A stretch of 32,998 nucleotides of DNA from Deltaproteobacteria bacterium (lineage in GTDB: Bacteria > Desulfobacterota > Desulfobulbia > Desulfobulbales > VMSU01). Location of the stretch: assembly GCA_024275235.1 (NCBI GenBank), contig JAJRZN010000035.1, forward strand, positions 1-32,998. The letters are read 5' to 3'. Within the stretch, counting starts at the first letter, position 1. The number at the start of each line of letters is the position of its first letter. This document shows positions 445 to 22,015 of the stretch, in pieces. The position numbers and the translations under genes were made by a program. The notes below the pieces were generated by a model. The model worked only from the letters and a program-made list of their open reading frames with translations, had not been told where the DNA came from and did no database searches.

Positions 445-1122
445 TCAACCCGCCGCCGCGGAAACCCTGCTCAGCATCAAGTTCAGCACAGCGGGGATAT
501 CCATCTTCGTGCAGTCAATAAGCAGGGCGTCTGCCGCCGGCTGTAACGGGGCCAGCTTCCGGCCGCTGTCATCCGCGTCACGTTTTTTGATCTGGGCCAG
601 AATATCATCATAGTCGGCACTCATGCCCTGTTGCCGCAGCTGCTCCGTCCGCCGCCGGGCCCGCTCCTCAGCCGCGGCCTCAAGAAAAAATTTACAGCGG
701 GCCGTGGGAAAAACAACGGTGCCGGTATCCCGCCCTTCGGCTACCACCCGGCCCCTGGCTGCCATCTGACGCTGCAAAGCCGTGAGCCGCTCCCGCACCA
801 GGGACTTGCCGGAAACCCTGGAGGCCATCATTCCCATCTCCGCCGAGCGAATAGCACGCGAGACATCCCGGCCGTTCAGAATCACCACACTATCCCCGCC
901 GCCGGGCAACAGCTCCAGCTCTAAGCCGGTCAACAACTCGTTCAGACTCCTGTCATCCTTTAAGTCAATACGCCTGTTTTTGACCTGAAGCCCCACGGCC
1001 CGGTACATGGCACCGGTATCGAGATAGGTATAACCGAGTTCAGCCGCCAACAGACGGCTCAAGGTACTTTTTCCTGAACCGGAAGGCCCGTCAATAGTAA
1101 TAATATCAGACCGTTGGCTCAC
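445..1122 (-). CDS. cmk: cytidylate kinase
   Basis: ITIDGPSGSGKSTLSRLLAAELGYTYLDTGAMYRA and GRDTGTVVFP motifs; length 225 aa. Confidence 0.95.
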   Translation of the reverse strand: MSQRSDIITIDGPSGSGKSTLSRLLAAELGYTYLDTGAMYRAVGLQVKNRRIDLKDDRSLNELLTGLELELLPGGGDSVVILNGRDVSRAIRSAEMGMMASRVSGKSLVRERLTALQRQMAARGRVVAEGRDTGTVVFPTARCKFFLEAAAEERARRRTEQLRQQGMSADYDDILAQIKKRDADDSGRKLAPLQPAADALLIDCTKMDIPAVLNLMLSRVSAAAG

Positions 1123-2222
1123 TTCCGCATCTCCAGTAACACCTTATCCACCGCCCTTATCAGGCGCTCGTTTTCGGCCGCGGTTCCCACCGTTATCCGG
1201 ATATAATCCGGATAACCATAGGCCGTCATCGGGCGGATAATCACTCCCCGGCGCAGCATGGCATCGTAAAATTTTCGCCCATCCAAATCGCCAAGGTGAA
1301 CCAGAAAGAAATTGGTCTCAGTAGGCAGGGGCCGCAGATCAAGCGCTCGCAATCCTTCACTGAGCCAGGCAATGCCATCCCTGGTCATGGTCAGGGTACG
1401 CTGGTAATGGTCATCATCCCCCAAAGCGGCCAAGGCCCCAATCTGGGCCAGCATATTGACGTTAAACGGCCCCCGCACCCGGTGCAGACAATCAGCGATC
1501 TCCTCCGGCATCAGCCCATAACCCACCCGCAGACCGGCCAGACCATAAGCCTTGGAAAAGGTACGCAGCCCCACCACTGCCTGAGGCCCGGCCAAATATT
1601 TTCGCACCTCAAGCTGTTTATCCGGACTGACAAAATCCCAATAGGCCTCATCAGCCACCACAATCACTCCTTCCGGCACCTCTGTTAAAAAGGCCTCAAA
1701 CTCTTGCGGAGTAAAGACCGTGCCGGTGGGATTATTGGGATTATCCAGAAAAATCAACCTGGTACGGGAAGTTACCGCTTGCAGAACAGCGTCTAAATCA
1801 TGGCGCATATCTCTCAGCGGCACAACACGGTTAATCCCGCCCTGGGCCTGAGTAACCTTGGTATAGACCAGAAAAGAGGGGGAACTGCTCACCGCCTCGT
1901 CACCAGGGGTTATAAAGGCCGCCGCGAGGAGGGCCAGAATTTCATCGGAACCGTTCCCAAAAACCAGCTGCCGCGGATTCACCCCGAGACGCTCTGCCAC
2001 AGCCTGGCTCAGATAATAGCTGCTGCCATCGGGATAACGGTGCAGATTGGTCAGGACCTTGCTGACGGCCGCCACCGCAAGGGGCGAGGGGCCGAGAGAA
2101 TTTTCGTTGGAGGCCATTTTGATGGAGCCCTTAACCCCATACTCCCGCTCCAGTTCCTCTATGGGCTTACCCGGCGGGTAAGGTACCAGGTTCTTTATAT
2201 AATCAGGAATAATCAGTTTCAT
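1119..2222 (-). CDS. hisC: histidinol-phosphate aminotransferase
   Basis: FSKAYGLAGLRVGYG PLP-Lys motif, DNPNNPTG, YIRITVGTAAEN C-terminus; overlaps cmk by 4 bp. Confidence 0.93.
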   Translation of the reverse strand: MKLIIPDYIKNLVPYPPGKPIEELEREYGVKGSIKMASNENSLGPSPLAVAAVSKVLTNLHRYPDGSSYYLSQAVAERLGVNPRQLVFGNGSDEILALLAAAFITPGDEAVSSSPSFLVYTKVTQAQGGINRVVPLRDMRHDLDAVLQAVTSRTRLIFLDNPNNPTGTVFTPQEFEAFLTEVPEGVIVVADEAYWDFVSPDKQLEVRKYLAGPQAVVGLRTFSKAYGLAGLRVGYGLMPEEIADCLHRVRGPFNVNMLAQIGALAALGDDDHYQRTLTMTRDGIAWLSEGLRALDLRPLPTETNFFLVHLGDLDGRKFYDAMLRRGVIIRPMTAYGYPDYIRITVGTAAENERLIRAVDKVLLEMRK

Positions 2223-16291: not shown

Positions 16292-17314
16292 ATGGCAAAA
16301 GTAATTCTGTCCTTAGACGGCGGCGGCATCCGCGGTGCCGCTACCACTCAATTCCTGGCCAAAATCGAAGAACAATTACAGACAAAACATAACAAATCCA
16401 TTCGAGACTGCGTTGATTTTTACGCCGGTACAAGTACCGGCAGCATTATCGCTCTTTGCCTTGCCACCACTGACATGAGCATGGATAAAATTAACGAGCT
16501 GTATAATTACCAGAATGCCCGGAAAATTTTCTCCGAGCATAAAGGTTTGCTGGCATTTGACGGCATAAACGTCCCTAAATTCGAGGCCAGAGGTAAGACC
16601 GAGATTCTTAAAAAGAATCTCGGTAAAGCCAGAATCAAAGACGTTCCAGCCAACAAGCACGTTCTCGCCGTTACCTACGCAATTGAAAAGCGCAGACCGG
16701 TGGTCATCAAATCCACCAAAAAGGATTATCTTAATCTCTTTTCATACCAGGCGGCCGATGCTTCAAGCGCGGCCCCCACCTATTTCCCCACTAAAGAGAT
16801 ACAGCTTTCCCCCGGGCAGGATGAATCATGGCTGGTTGACGGCGGGGTCATTGCCAACAACCCCACCATGTGCGCCATAACTGAGGCCAAGCGGGTCTGG
16901 CGAGATGTACCGTTAAGTGAAATGCGCGTACTTTCCATAGGAACGGGCTTTATGACCAGAAAAATAAATGGCCCGGAATCACAGAGATGGGGAGGCATAC
17001 AGTGGATGACAGAGGGGCACATCATGGAAGTACTCTCCGATGAGCGTATCGTGGCCTATCAGGCCATGACTATCATTGATTCCGGCAATTATATCAGGGT
17101 CAATGCCAAACTCAAAGAACAGGCCGGACTGCCACAGCCCCCTGATGATGCCATGGATGACGTAAGTAAGGCCAACATCAAGCGCCTCAAAAGGCTGGGC
17201 AATTTCTGGTTCGAGAAATATGGTGAAGCCGCAGTCCAGCTACTCTTAGACACCTACGAAGGCCCCTCCTTAGACCGTATTGACTGGCAGTCCGGCAAAC
17301 CGATAACCAACTGA
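16292..17314 (+). CDS. Patatin-like phospholipase
   Basis: DGGGIRG oxyanion motif, GTSTG nucleophile elbow, catalytic DGG (LVDGGVIANNP); AAAGGGG ribosome-binding site. Confidence 0.93.
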   Translation: MAKVILSLDGGGIRGAATTQFLAKIEEQLQTKHNKSIRDCVDFYAGTSTGSIIALCLATTDMSMDKINELYNYQNARKIFSEHKGLLAFDGINVPKFEARGKTEILKKNLGKARIKDVPANKHVLAVTYAIEKRRPVVIKSTKKDYLNLFSYQAADASSAAPTYFPTKEIQLSPGQDESWLVDGGVIANNPTMCAITEAKRVWRDVPLSEMRVLSIGTGFMTRKINGPESQRWGGIQWMTEGHIMEVLSDERIVAYQAMTIIDSGNYIRVNAKLKEQAGLPQPPDDAMDDVSKANIKRLKRLGNFWFEKYGEAAVQLLLDTYEGPSLDRIDWQSGKPITN

Positions 17315-19313: not shown

Positions 19314-19961
19314 TTAAAAACGCAATAATTGCCAGCCGTATATCACGGTGATGATCAAGGTGTACAGCATGAGAGCGTAATACCATCGACCGGCAAATTT
19401 GGGGGTTTTAATCGAGGCCACATTTAAAGCGGCCAGCAGCATAAGCAGGATATAGAGAAAGACAGAAAAAGCCGTTTGGCTGATTAGTCCATTAAACAGA
19501 AACGCAAAGACCAGAATGATAACGTTATTGTCCAGCGCCAGCCCCATGTAGGTCGATTTTTCAACCAGGCCGAAGACATTAAAGTAGCTGAGGCGGAGCA
19601 CTCCGGTCGCCACAATAATAAAGGCTCCAGGTAAGAACCAGGGGCTGAAATGGCCGTAACTTAACAGGATAATTGCCGGGCAGATACTGAAGCTGACAAT
19701 GTCGATCAGGGAATCAAGCTGCCCTCCGACCTCCCGCTGTTTATCGTTTCGCCCTTTCAGGTGCCGGGCAATAATGCCATCACTCCAATCAAAGAACACC
19801 GCCCAGATCAAGCCGATCATCGCGGCCGGAAAGAGGCCCAGGATTGCATAATAAATAGCAAGAACCGTGCAGAGAAGCCCGGTCAGGGAACAGATGTTGG
19901 GCAGGTCTCCGGCAAAAGAGAGTATGGAAACAGGTGAGTTCGCTGAATTGGGCCTTGCCAT
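19314..19961 (-). CDS. CDP-alcohol phosphatidyltransferase family membrane protein
   Basis: CAP-motif variant DWSDGIIARHLKGRNDKQREVGGQLDSLIDIV; multiple hydrophobic helices. Confidence 0.88.
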   Translation of the reverse strand: MARPNSANSPVSILSFAGDLPNICSLTGLLCTVLAIYYAILGLFPAAMIGLIWAVFFDWSDGIIARHLKGRNDKQREVGGQLDSLIDIVSFSICPAIILLSYGHFSPWFLPGAFIIVATGVLRLSYFNVFGLVEKSTYMGLALDNNVIILVFAFLFNGLISQTAFSVFLYILLMLLAALNVASIKTPKFAGRWYYALMLYTLIITVIYGWQLLRF

Positions 19962-21064
19962 TATTTTCCTTCCCGGCCAATAATGCCGTCCAGGGCCTCG
20001 ACCAATCGCTTGTTTTCTGCCTCGGTACGGCTGGCTATACGGAGATAACGGTCAGATTCCGGCATGGTCTTGCCCTGGCAGTGTTTAATATAGATATTGT
20101 GCTGAATAAACAGTGAACGGGTAACCTGCGGGCCGGATGCCGCGTGGTGAGGCAGGCGGCAGAAAATATAATTAGCCTCAGGCCGGTAGACGGTCATTCC
20201 TGGAATCGTCTGGAGTTGTTCATAAAAATAATCACGATCCGCCTTGACCTTATTACAGCTCGCACTAAACTCCTGGCGATACTGCGGAGCAAGACGCAGA
20301 AATTCTTCCGCGAAACCATTAATATTCCAAATATGGAGTCCTTGTCGAACCTTTGCCGCAAAATCAGCGTTCGCGGTAAGCATATAACCGATTCGAATAC
20401 CGCAGATACCATAGGCCTTGCTCATGCTTTTGAAAATTACCAAATTCGGATATCTGTCAAGCTCTGTTGCCAGGGTCTCCTGATCGCGGTTTCGCGCAAA
20501 ATCAATGAAAGATTCATCAACAATGAGCATACAGTCGTGGTCTGCCAGCCTCTTCAGCAGGCGGATAAGTTCAACCTTCGGGACAAGCAGTGAGGTGGGA
20601 TTATTCGGAGAGACCACCACGGCCAAACCGGCCTGACAGCGGATGGCCTCGTCTGCGAATTTGTCCACATCCAACTGAAATGAAGGGGCTTCAAGGGCAA
20701 ACTCAACTACACTGCCGGCGGGGGCGGCATTGACGTATTCATTGAATGACGGAACCGGGACAATCAATTTGCGGCCCATGCCGGAGATAATCTTGATAAG
20801 CTCTGCCGCCCCATTGCCAACGACAAGACGTTCCGGCGGCTGATTGATCAAATCGCCCACCAGACCTGCCAGATCCTGCTGGGCAACAGGGTAGTTTAAC
20901 ACCAACTGATGAATTTTCCTAATAAGATGGTTGAAAAACTCCTCCGGCGGGAAATAGAGGTTATAGAGGTAATTATGATCAATGAAATCATGACGCCAAT
21001 AACCGCCATGCTGGTTGGAAACAAAATCGTAGCGCTCTTGAATGGTAGAGTATTGATTGGTCAT
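19961..21064 (-). CDS. HisC/CobD-like PLP-dependent aminotransferase or decarboxylase
   Basis: FKSMSKAYGICGIRIGYM PLP-Lys motif, SPNNPTS, YLRIASRTEAENKRLVEAL; shares its boundary base with the CDP-alcohol transferase gene. Confidence 0.88.
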   Translation of the reverse strand: MTNQYSTIQERYDFVSNQHGGYWRHDFIDHNYLYNLYFPPEEFFNHLIRKIHQLVLNYPVAQQDLAGLVGDLINQPPERLVVGNGAAELIKIISGMGRKLIVPVPSFNEYVNAAPAGSVVEFALEAPSFQLDVDKFADEAIRCQAGLAVVVSPNNPTSLLVPKVELIRLLKRLADHDCMLIVDESFIDFARNRDQETLATELDRYPNLVIFKSMSKAYGICGIRIGYMLTANADFAAKVRQGLHIWNINGFAEEFLRLAPQYRQEFSASCNKVKADRDYFYEQLQTIPGMTVYRPEANYIFCRLPHHAASGPQVTRSLFIQHNIYIKHCQGKTMPESDRYLRIASRTEAENKRLVEALDGIIGREGK

Positions 21065-21145
21065 TTTTTTGATAACTAAATAGAGGATGATTCTAAGAGT
21101 AAAACCGGCATCATGGAAGCGGGCTCCCTGCTCCCGGGGTAAGGG

Positions 21146-22015
21146 TCAGGCCCACCTTTGGTTCGAGTAATGGCTGGTAACCGCTTGACGGTGTGGAGAA
21201 AGTCCAAGACGACCCGGCTGCGTGCCCTCGTGGACAACATGTACAGCCGGCAGGTGATGAAGGCTGCACATGAGGGCCGCGGCGTGCAGATCTGCAATAG
21301 TATCAATCTCATACCAACGATCGGCATCAAAGAGAACCGGCGTAAAAGAGAGACAACCCTCTGCGACCATATCCGCAAAAACCGTCTCATAATAACCATT
21401 TACCATATTATTTGAAATACGGCGGTCTAATCTTTTACAAACTAATTCCCAGGTTTGTAAGGAGAGGCTGTAAATATTGACAGTTTTATACTGTCTCTCA
21501 TCCGTTTTCTGGATGTCCTTATGAAATGCTTTAATCTTCTGGTGAGTGTTAATGGTTACCGTAGTGCCGTTCATCCAGGGCTGCAATGTGGAGACTGCGA
21601 TTCGATCTGGATGGAGCATATCCTTGAGCATTTCGGGCTTGAAAACCAGATCACTCTCAATCAGCAGAAAGGGTTCATCTATTTCCTGTCTTGCCAGCCA
21701 TAGCGAATAAATATTGTTGGTTGTTTTATATACCGGGCTGATAATATAAGTTATTTCCATACCCCCAGCCCGAGTTCCAAGAAAATCACGGATAGAGTCC
21801 GCCTGATGGCCGACAACTATAACCAGACGTTTAAAGTTATGTAAACGCAAGCTATCAACCAACCTCTCAAGAATAGATATTTTATCGACGAGAACACGGC
21901 ATTTGGCTGTTCTGTCGGTCAGCGGCGCCAAACGGCTGCCTGTACCCGCGGCCAGTAACAGGGCCGTTCGTACTTGTTCTTCCTCTAATCCTGGATGGGC
22001 CGGTAGATTCTTCAT
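21146..22015 (-). CDS. LicC/MobA-like nucleotidyltransferase (putative phospho-alcohol cytidylyltransferase)
   Basis: ALLLAAGTGSRLAPLTDRTAKCRVLVDKISILERLVDSL, LLIESDLVFKPEML, DADRWYEIDTIADLHAA. Confidence 0.85.
   Translation of the reverse strand: MKNLPAHPGLEEEQVRTALLLAAGTGSRLAPLTDRTAKCRVLVDKISILERLVDSLRLHNFKRLVIVVGHQADSIRDFLGTRAGGMEITYIISPVYKTTNNIYSLWLARQEIDEPFLLIESDLVFKPEMLKDMLHPDRIAVSTLQPWMNGTTVTINTHQKIKAFHKDIQKTDERQYKTVNIYSLSLQTWELVCKRLDRRISNNMVNGYYETVFADMVAEGCLSFTPVLFDADRWYEIDTIADLHAAALMCSLHHLPAVHVVHEGTQPGRLGLSPHRQAVTSHYSNQRWA

Follow-up and report, generated by a model that had tools for sequence, protein, structure and literature searches.

Why should a nucleotidyltransferase, a pyridoxal phosphate (PLP) enzyme and a cytidine diphosphate (CDP)-alcohol phosphotransferase be encoded side by side in a Deltaproteobacteria bacterium of the order Desulfobulbales? 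The three genes lie on a contig of 32,998 nucleotides (JAJRZN010000035.1, assembly GCA_024275235.1). We call this whole stretch of DNA the window and the three genes the cassette. An earlier note on this DNA had described them as three consecutive minus-strand genes of which the last two abut. The coordinates are exact, the stop codon of the PLP gene and the start codon of the phosphotransferase gene have one base in common (TAATG), and the products score above the cut-offs of their Pfam families (NTP_transferase and NTP_transf_3, Aminotran_1_2, and CDP-OH_P_transf, in gene order):

21146..22015, minus strand: LicC/PntC-like nucleotidyltransferase, predicted cytidylyltransferase, 289 amino acids (PF00483/PF12804, over cut-off)
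19961..21064, minus strand: PLP enzyme, predicted to decarboxylate phosphoserine or its cytidine monophosphate (CMP) conjugate, 367 amino acids (PF00155, over cut-off)
19314..19961, minus strand: CDP-alcohol phosphotransferase with a phosphatidylserine (PS) synthase-like fold, distinct subfamily, 215 amino acids (PF01066, over cut-off)

None of the three proteins reaches the cut-off of any NCBIfam model, and the trio therefore has no curated name in that database. A short open reading frame at 21076-21399 (minus strand) was discarded as spurious, as it overlaps the conserved nucleotidyltransferase gene.

The balance tips somewhat towards the cassette being a self-contained CDP-amino-alcohol pathway, which would run from phosphoserine to CDP-ethanolamine and on to the transfer of phosphoethanolamine. 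The LicC-like enzyme and a decarboxylase resembling CobD and SMUL_1544 would together turn O-phospho-L-serine and cytidine triphosphate into CDP-ethanolamine. Phosphoserine might first be decarboxylated to ethanolamine phosphate and cytidylylated second. Alternatively, cytidylylation might come first and the CMP conjugate would then lose its carboxyl group, as described for FrbH, the cytidylyltransferase-decarboxylase fusion of FR-900098 biosynthesis, where decarboxylation follows cytidylylation (PMC8976061). The membrane phosphotransferase would then move phosphoethanolamine from CDP-ethanolamine onto the hydroxyl of an acceptor and release CMP. We infer the substrates, the CDP-ethanolamine product, its role as donor and the order of the steps from comparisons of the encoded proteins. 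Each step has a precedent: besides FrbH, there are Cj1436, a phosphoserine decarboxylase yielding ethanolamine phosphate, and Cj1437, whose product is serinol phosphate (PMC11800397). Given these precedents, the cassette could be seen as a split FrbH that acts on phosphoserine and is followed by a transferase. Our literature search returned no description of the three-gene combination, i.e. of a prokaryotic de novo route from phosphoserine to CDP-ethanolamine with its own phosphotransferase; the only relevant precedents for the combination were PntC and FrbH.

The genes, their conservation, their intact motifs, their family placement and their co-occurrence are established. We analysed 146 genomes of the order of the window organism. 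An orthologue of the PLP enzyme (66-94% identity) is present in 22 of them, and there are no sequences between these orthologues and the paralogues at about 33% identity. When each family was searched for separately, 22 genomes had the phosphotransferase subfamily and 24 had the close nucleotidyltransferase. The 22 PLP-positive genomes include 21 with the former and 22 with the latter, while the two nucleotidyltransferases beyond this set (genomes G002 and G133) begin 2 and 179 bases from a contig end. The co-occurrence of PLP enzyme and phosphotransferase (22 and 22, both in 21, of 146) has a hypergeometric p of about 4e-23, a value that ignores shared ancestry. The order nucleotidyltransferase, PLP enzyme, phosphotransferase is found in all 22 neighbourhoods, one of which ends at a contig edge before the third gene. 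A chance neighbourhood can be rejected given this near-perfect co-occurrence of the three families.

A wider scan retained 80 loci with 63-89% identity in the PLP enzyme, from Desulfobacterota, Gammaproteobacteria, Bacteroidota, Kiritimatiellota, Methanosarcinales and several further phyla. Many loci derive from metagenome bins, and the further phyla are represented by bins only, whose labels may be wrong. Cultured carriers include Carboxylicivirga marina, Flavivirga rizhaonensis and Pontiella sulfatireligans. The nucleotidyltransferase lies upstream of the PLP gene in 79 of the 80 loci (the remaining one starts too near the PLP gene). Downstream DNA is readable for 77 loci, and 74 of these have the phosphotransferase there (the exceptions are L062, L066 and L083). 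The flanks are not conserved, optional fourth genes aside. The shared neighbourhood that the earlier note proposed to look for in other genomes thus exists and is conserved across phyla, and of the fusions among the three domains, which it also proposed to seek, those of homologues of the first two were found in L119, L125 and L126. Together, these patterns support the view that the three genes function as one conserved unit.

Archaeal and bacterial PLP sequences are intermixed in the tree, where the window sequence is closest, among the sequences included, to one from Desulfobulbus. This interleaving suggests that the cassette has passed horizontally between lineages. It is rare in Bacteroidota despite many matches in the unsampled scan, since an even sample of this phylum showed it in 1 of 297 genomes, the centre genome itself. 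One metagenome-assembled genome of Methanosarcina carries the cassette twice in tandem (L064:7055-13338). A class III aminotransferase gene lies downstream of the PLP gene instead of the phosphotransferase in L062 and L083, and is followed in L083 by a gene resembling a 2-hydroxyacid dehydrogenase.

What does the PLP enzyme do? It scores 182 bits with the NCBIfam CobD model TIGR01140 (cut-off 290.55) and 147 bits with the HisC model TIGR01141 (cut-off 276.55). The genome encodes both of these enzymes elsewhere, each over its cut-off: a separate HisC in the window (1119-2222, 327.5 bits) and, on contig C8, a fusion of CobD and CobQ (320.6 bits). We therefore rejected a HisC or a CobD function for the cassette enzyme. 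The hisC gene of the window is the genome's dedicated histidinol-phosphate transaminase gene and overlaps cmk by four bases (445-2222, minus strand).

Among solved structures, 6oux matches best both in sequence and in fold; its sequence score is 165 bits, whereas CobD scores 105 and E. coli HisC 72. It is described as SMUL_1544, a decarboxylase of Sulfurospirillum multivorans, whose substrate we take to be L-serine O-phosphate. The tree groups the cassette enzymes with 6oux and distant plasmid relatives, apart from CobD, 3ftb and HisC2 (100/98), although it has long branches and its detail is unsure. The PLP lysine (Lys216) and Phe186 are invariant in 81 of 81 cassette enzymes. The site of Phe186 reads DEAF or DESF in 1lc5 (CobD), 3ftb and 6oux, but DEAY in the aminotransferase 3euc. 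The cassette enzymes thus carry the mark of the CobD/SMUL_1544 type, i.e. the PLP lysine together with a Phe (DE(A/S)F) where aminotransferases have Tyr. We checked this rule on few structures and it is not absolute, because 3fkd, annotated as CobD, has the Tyr (DQSY). Arg342, which by manual count on the alignment corresponds to CobD Arg337, is invariant as well. These results support a grouping with amino-acid-phosphate decarboxylases rather than with HisC. Of the earlier view that a HisC/CobD-like enzyme makes an amino-alcohol phosphate, the proposed chemistry fits this grouping, but the cut-offs place the enzyme outside both HisC and CobD. The known decarboxylases SMUL_1544 and Cj1436 differ in that they are about 29% identical to it and serve cobamide or capsule pathways.

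The nucleotidyltransferase has LicC (1jyk, 84 bits) and the PntC-transaminase of T. denticola (6pd1, 66 bits) as nearest solved relatives over its whole domain; its tail, beyond about residue 250, lacks conservation. This agrees with the earlier assignment as LicC-like, and makes a CDP-amino-alcohol the best prediction for the product. Glu120 and Glu210 are invariant in 80 of 80 cassette enzymes. The equivalent Glu104 and Glu196 of PntC are placed near the primary amine, whereas LicC has Asp105 and Asp192, which are smaller and may make space for choline (PMC6697681). We used the equivalence of that paper, since the automatic alignment shifts the LicC residue at Glu120 by one. The cassette enzymes have the PntC pair and lack the LicC pair, and we predict from this that their substrate is a small primary amine such as ethanolamine phosphate, of about the size of 2-aminoethylphosphonate (AEP). 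LicC also differs in its function: its pocket is choline-sized, and it takes choline phosphate but does not make the alcohol phosphate from an amino acid. PntC, like the cassette, combines a cytidylyltransferase with a PLP enzyme, in its case as a fusion. It differs in having a class V transaminase as PLP domain and in acting on a phosphonate. No match to the phosphoenolpyruvate (PEP) mutase family PF13714 was found in the window's genome, which is 93% complete, and 18 cassette genomes gave no TIGR02320 match above its cut-off. A phosphonate product (CMP-AEP) was consequently rejected for the window's genome.

The phosphotransferase is closest to the NCBIfam models of archaetidylserine synthase and PssA, both below cut-off. 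Its sole sequence matches in the PDB are 7pow and 7b1k, the PS synthase of M. jannaschii, which also gave the only strong matches in the fold search (model with a predicted local distance difference test score, pLDDT, of 79). The published motif of the superfamily is DxxDGxxAR(x8)GxxxDxxxD (PMC8633023). The cassette members retain its catalytic Asp, Gly, Ala and Arg residues, and its four Asp residues are invariant in 74 of 74. Two features set these proteins apart:

19701..19790, minus strand: CDP-alcohol phosphotransferase motif, residues 58-87, with AR(x12)G and an invariant Arg71 (74/74 cassette members)
19581..19595, minus strand: RLSYF, residues 123-127, in place of the serine-binding motif RLARF of PS synthases (Tyr126 in all 73 readable rows)

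The spacer of the first motif is 7 or 8 in the other CDP-OH-P proteins with an intact motif that we read from cassette genomes. The PS synthases encoded beside psd in other cassette genomes carry RLARF. The second Arg of this motif has been implicated in serine binding, as the R189A mutant of C. albicans Cho1 has a raised Km for serine (PMC8727905); at this position the cassette proteins have the Tyr of RLSYF or a near variant. They thus resemble PS synthases yet lack two of their defining features, the AR(x8)G spacing and RLARF. There is also no conserved psd neighbour beside the cassette. We did not file the cassette under PS synthase, LicC, CobD or HisC, because each failed at a feature that we tested.

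Natural variants of the locus are another source of evidence. The LicD family includes phosphocholine transferases. A licD gene follows the nucleotidyltransferase-PLP pair in L066, in L115 one is located further down from the trio (both by Pfam, over cut-off), and one, assigned by eye from the sequence, follows the nucleotidyltransferase-PLP fusion of L119. A search of 395 Bacteroidota genomes with this LicD-linked fusion matched only the query genome. Genome G112 has a cassette-type phosphotransferase with no PLP or LicC-like partner (L148:4686-5901). It lies 61 bases from a PF01467 cytidylyltransferase, unrelated to the LicC-like one, whose best solved relative is an ethanolamine-phosphate cytidylyltransferase. 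Some loci have a fourth gene, which is ATP-grasp-like in about 20 (including L042:5811-7148 and L046:9792-11063), with weak similarity to the amino-acid ligases LdmS and BesA, and a S-adenosylmethionine-dependent methyltransferase in about 10 others.

The pair or the trio is also found on plasmids, at roughly 35-45% identity. In Priestia megaterium pBM700 (L125:802-8906), a fused nucleotidyltransferase-PLP protein is accompanied by a CDP-OH-P phosphotransferase (absent from the plasmid's gene table), ATP-grasp and AAC(3)-like genes, a gene resembling lysine/ornithine monooxygenases and an extra dxr. Erwinia rhapontici pERA53 (L126:3987-13086) has a related set with the fusion, the phosphotransferase, ATP-grasp and AAC(3)-like genes. 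The distant clusters also have asnB, opine-dehydrogenase-like and transporter genes, and look like natural-product pathways. The Priestia set brings to mind fosfoxacin, which is the naturally occurring phosphate congener of fosmidomycin, an inhibitor of DXR (PMC9782300), and the Priestia and Erwinia sets are possibly clusters of the fosfoxacin/fosfocytocin type, in which dxr would confer self-resistance. In the distant clusters, the phosphotransferases likewise have the Tyr and a long spacer, of 12 residues (13 by manual count in L125), but differ at other conserved positions (GLALDNN against GxPxxY). Mesorhizobium loti p_1 (L127:2567-7041) encodes a PEP mutase over cut-off, a class I aminotransferase, a nucleotidyltransferase and a PLP enzyme with 44% identity, possibly a route from phosphonoalanine to AEP. 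A PEP mutase is what one would expect beside a phosphonoalanine decarboxylase, because phosphonoalanine is the phosphonate analogue of phosphoserine. The fusions of S. meliloti pSINME02 (L123:5341-7113) and S. fredii pNGR234a (L128:5284-7140) lack the usual LAAGxGSR motif in their nucleotidyltransferase half, which looks degenerate. The LicD, G112, fourth-gene and plasmid variants would all fit a CDP-amino-alcohol donor.

The fusions resemble FrbH, in which a cytidylyltransferase and a decarboxylase convert a phosphonate-bearing amino acid into a CMP-activated amine. The corresponding cassette genes are adjacent in 79 loci, and their homologues are fused in L119, L125 and L126. In contrast to FrbH, which acts on a phosphonate, the cassette encodes two proteins plus a phosphotransferase and comes without PEP mutase; this comparison is with the published description of FrbH.

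Several observations count against the proposed route to CDP-ethanolamine and its use as donor. The position of CobD Arg323, also an Arg in 6oux, is an invariant Lys327 in the cassette enzymes, so their substrate may differ from those of the known decarboxylases. A second invariant Lys is found at 332, and one may speculate that Lys327 and Lys332 reflect recognition of the CMP conjugate rather than of a phosphomonoester. The structure model of the PLP enzyme is moderate (pLDDT 71). The phosphotransferase is nearest to enzymes that use CDP-diacylglycerol as donor. Finally, the cytidylyltransferase of G112, a single case, also resembles glycerol-3-phosphate cytidylyltransferase and HldE domains.

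Which molecule would accept the phosphoethanolamine? It is possible, if somewhat doubtful, that the acceptor is a lipid, a solution compatible with the pathway proposed above. Transfer to diacylglycerol or archaeol would give phosphatidylethanolamine (PE) in a Kennedy-like manner, and transfer to another lipid alcohol an extra or unusual aminophospholipid. The fold of the phosphotransferase is that of a lipid enzyme, PS synthase, and the methyltransferase of about ten loci would suit N-methylated head groups. As in the Kennedy pathway, CDP-ethanolamine would be the donor for a CDP-OH-P phosphotransferase; however, ethanolamine phosphate would come from phosphoserine, not from ethanolamine, and the enzymes belong to other subfamilies. 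Transfer to a lipid is the version of the earlier note, which had proposed a Kennedy-like route independent of exogenous ethanolamine or choline, or a novel aminophospholipid such as phosphatidylserinol, and suggested checking the genome for pssA/psd. A Psd homologue is present in fragmentary form where a contig ends. Psd matches occur in 18 of 18 other cassette genomes (19 of 19 tested overall), and in other cassette genomes a canonical PS synthase gene stands next to psd. A Kennedy-type replacement of the PS synthase/Psd route is thus disfavoured, because Psd is present in all cassette genomes tested. The same presence would make PE from the cassette redundant. The cassette is moreover kept in methanogens, whose core lipids differ, though archaetidylethanolamine exists, and its relatives sit in natural-product-like clusters.

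These clusters point instead to a soluble acceptor, an equally tentative solution. The product would be a small phosphoethanolamine diester, i.e. a metabolite, a solute or a natural product, tailored in some lineages by the ATP-grasp ligase or the methyltransferase. The company of the distant trios on plasmids and the LdmS/BesA-like fourth gene would suit such a product, and CDP-OH-P enzymes of this sort exist (IPCT-DIPPS, 4mnd, is among the fold matches). Yet most loci have no further biosynthetic gene beside the trio, and the plasmid phosphotransferases differ elsewhere in sequence, as described above.

The group transferred might also be another amino alcohol, which we find unlikely. It would be serinol phosphate made from dihydroxyacetone phosphate, or 1-amino-2-propanol phosphate made from threonine phosphate. 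In its favour, one cluster holds both Cj1437, the serinol phosphate enzyme, and Cj1436, the ethanolamine phosphate enzyme (PMC11800397), and the CobD model, specific for threonine phosphate, has the top NCBIfam score. Nevertheless, Phe186 speaks against transamination, within the limits of a rule checked on few structures, the tree sets the PLP enzyme with 6oux and not with CobD, and the nucleotidyltransferase pocket looks PntC-like, i.e. small.

Less probable still is that the phosphotransferase genuinely uses CDP-diacylglycerol, as a variant of PS synthase with an amino-alcohol acceptor, and that the nucleotidyltransferase activates something else, e.g. a sugar phosphate. PS synthases are indeed the closest family models and structures, and the generic nucleotidyltransferase models are mostly of sugar enzymes. 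But the serine-binding Arg is a Tyr in every member, the motif spacer differs, some cytidylyltransferase always adjoins the phosphotransferase gene, be it the unrelated one of G112, and the nearest structures over the whole nucleotidyltransferase domain are LicC and PntC. That the cassette is an ordinary neighbourhood of HisC/CobD, a sugar nucleotidyltransferase and a housekeeping PS synthase with no common pathway, the names that automatic annotation would assign, is extremely improbable given the separate HisC and CobD of this genome, the canonical PS synthase beside psd in other cassette genomes and the near-perfect co-occurrence of the cassette genes.

Elsewhere in the window, a gene at 16292-17314 (plus strand) encodes a patatin-like phospholipase that scores 172 bits with the CBASS phospholipase model, near the cut-off of 200, with no obvious adjoining cyclase.

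With a little less assurance than for the pathway itself, we would suggest that the cassette makes an undescribed phosphoethanolamine-bearing lipid or soluble phosphodiester, through CDP-ethanolamine obtained directly from phosphoserine and a new CDP-OH-P subfamily, and that marine and anaerobic bacteria share it with methanogenic archaea through horizontal transfer. If this is true, it would explain a widely shared gene set that has remained unannotated. Bacteria and archaea would have a source of phosphoethanolamine that does not start from PE, and the CDP-OH-P phosphotransferases would gain a subfamily recognisable by its motif. The enzyme pair is also found in plasmid clusters resembling antibiotic pathways, where the assignment would help too. 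For the many marine anaerobes that carry the cassette, it would point to an unknown lipid or metabolite.

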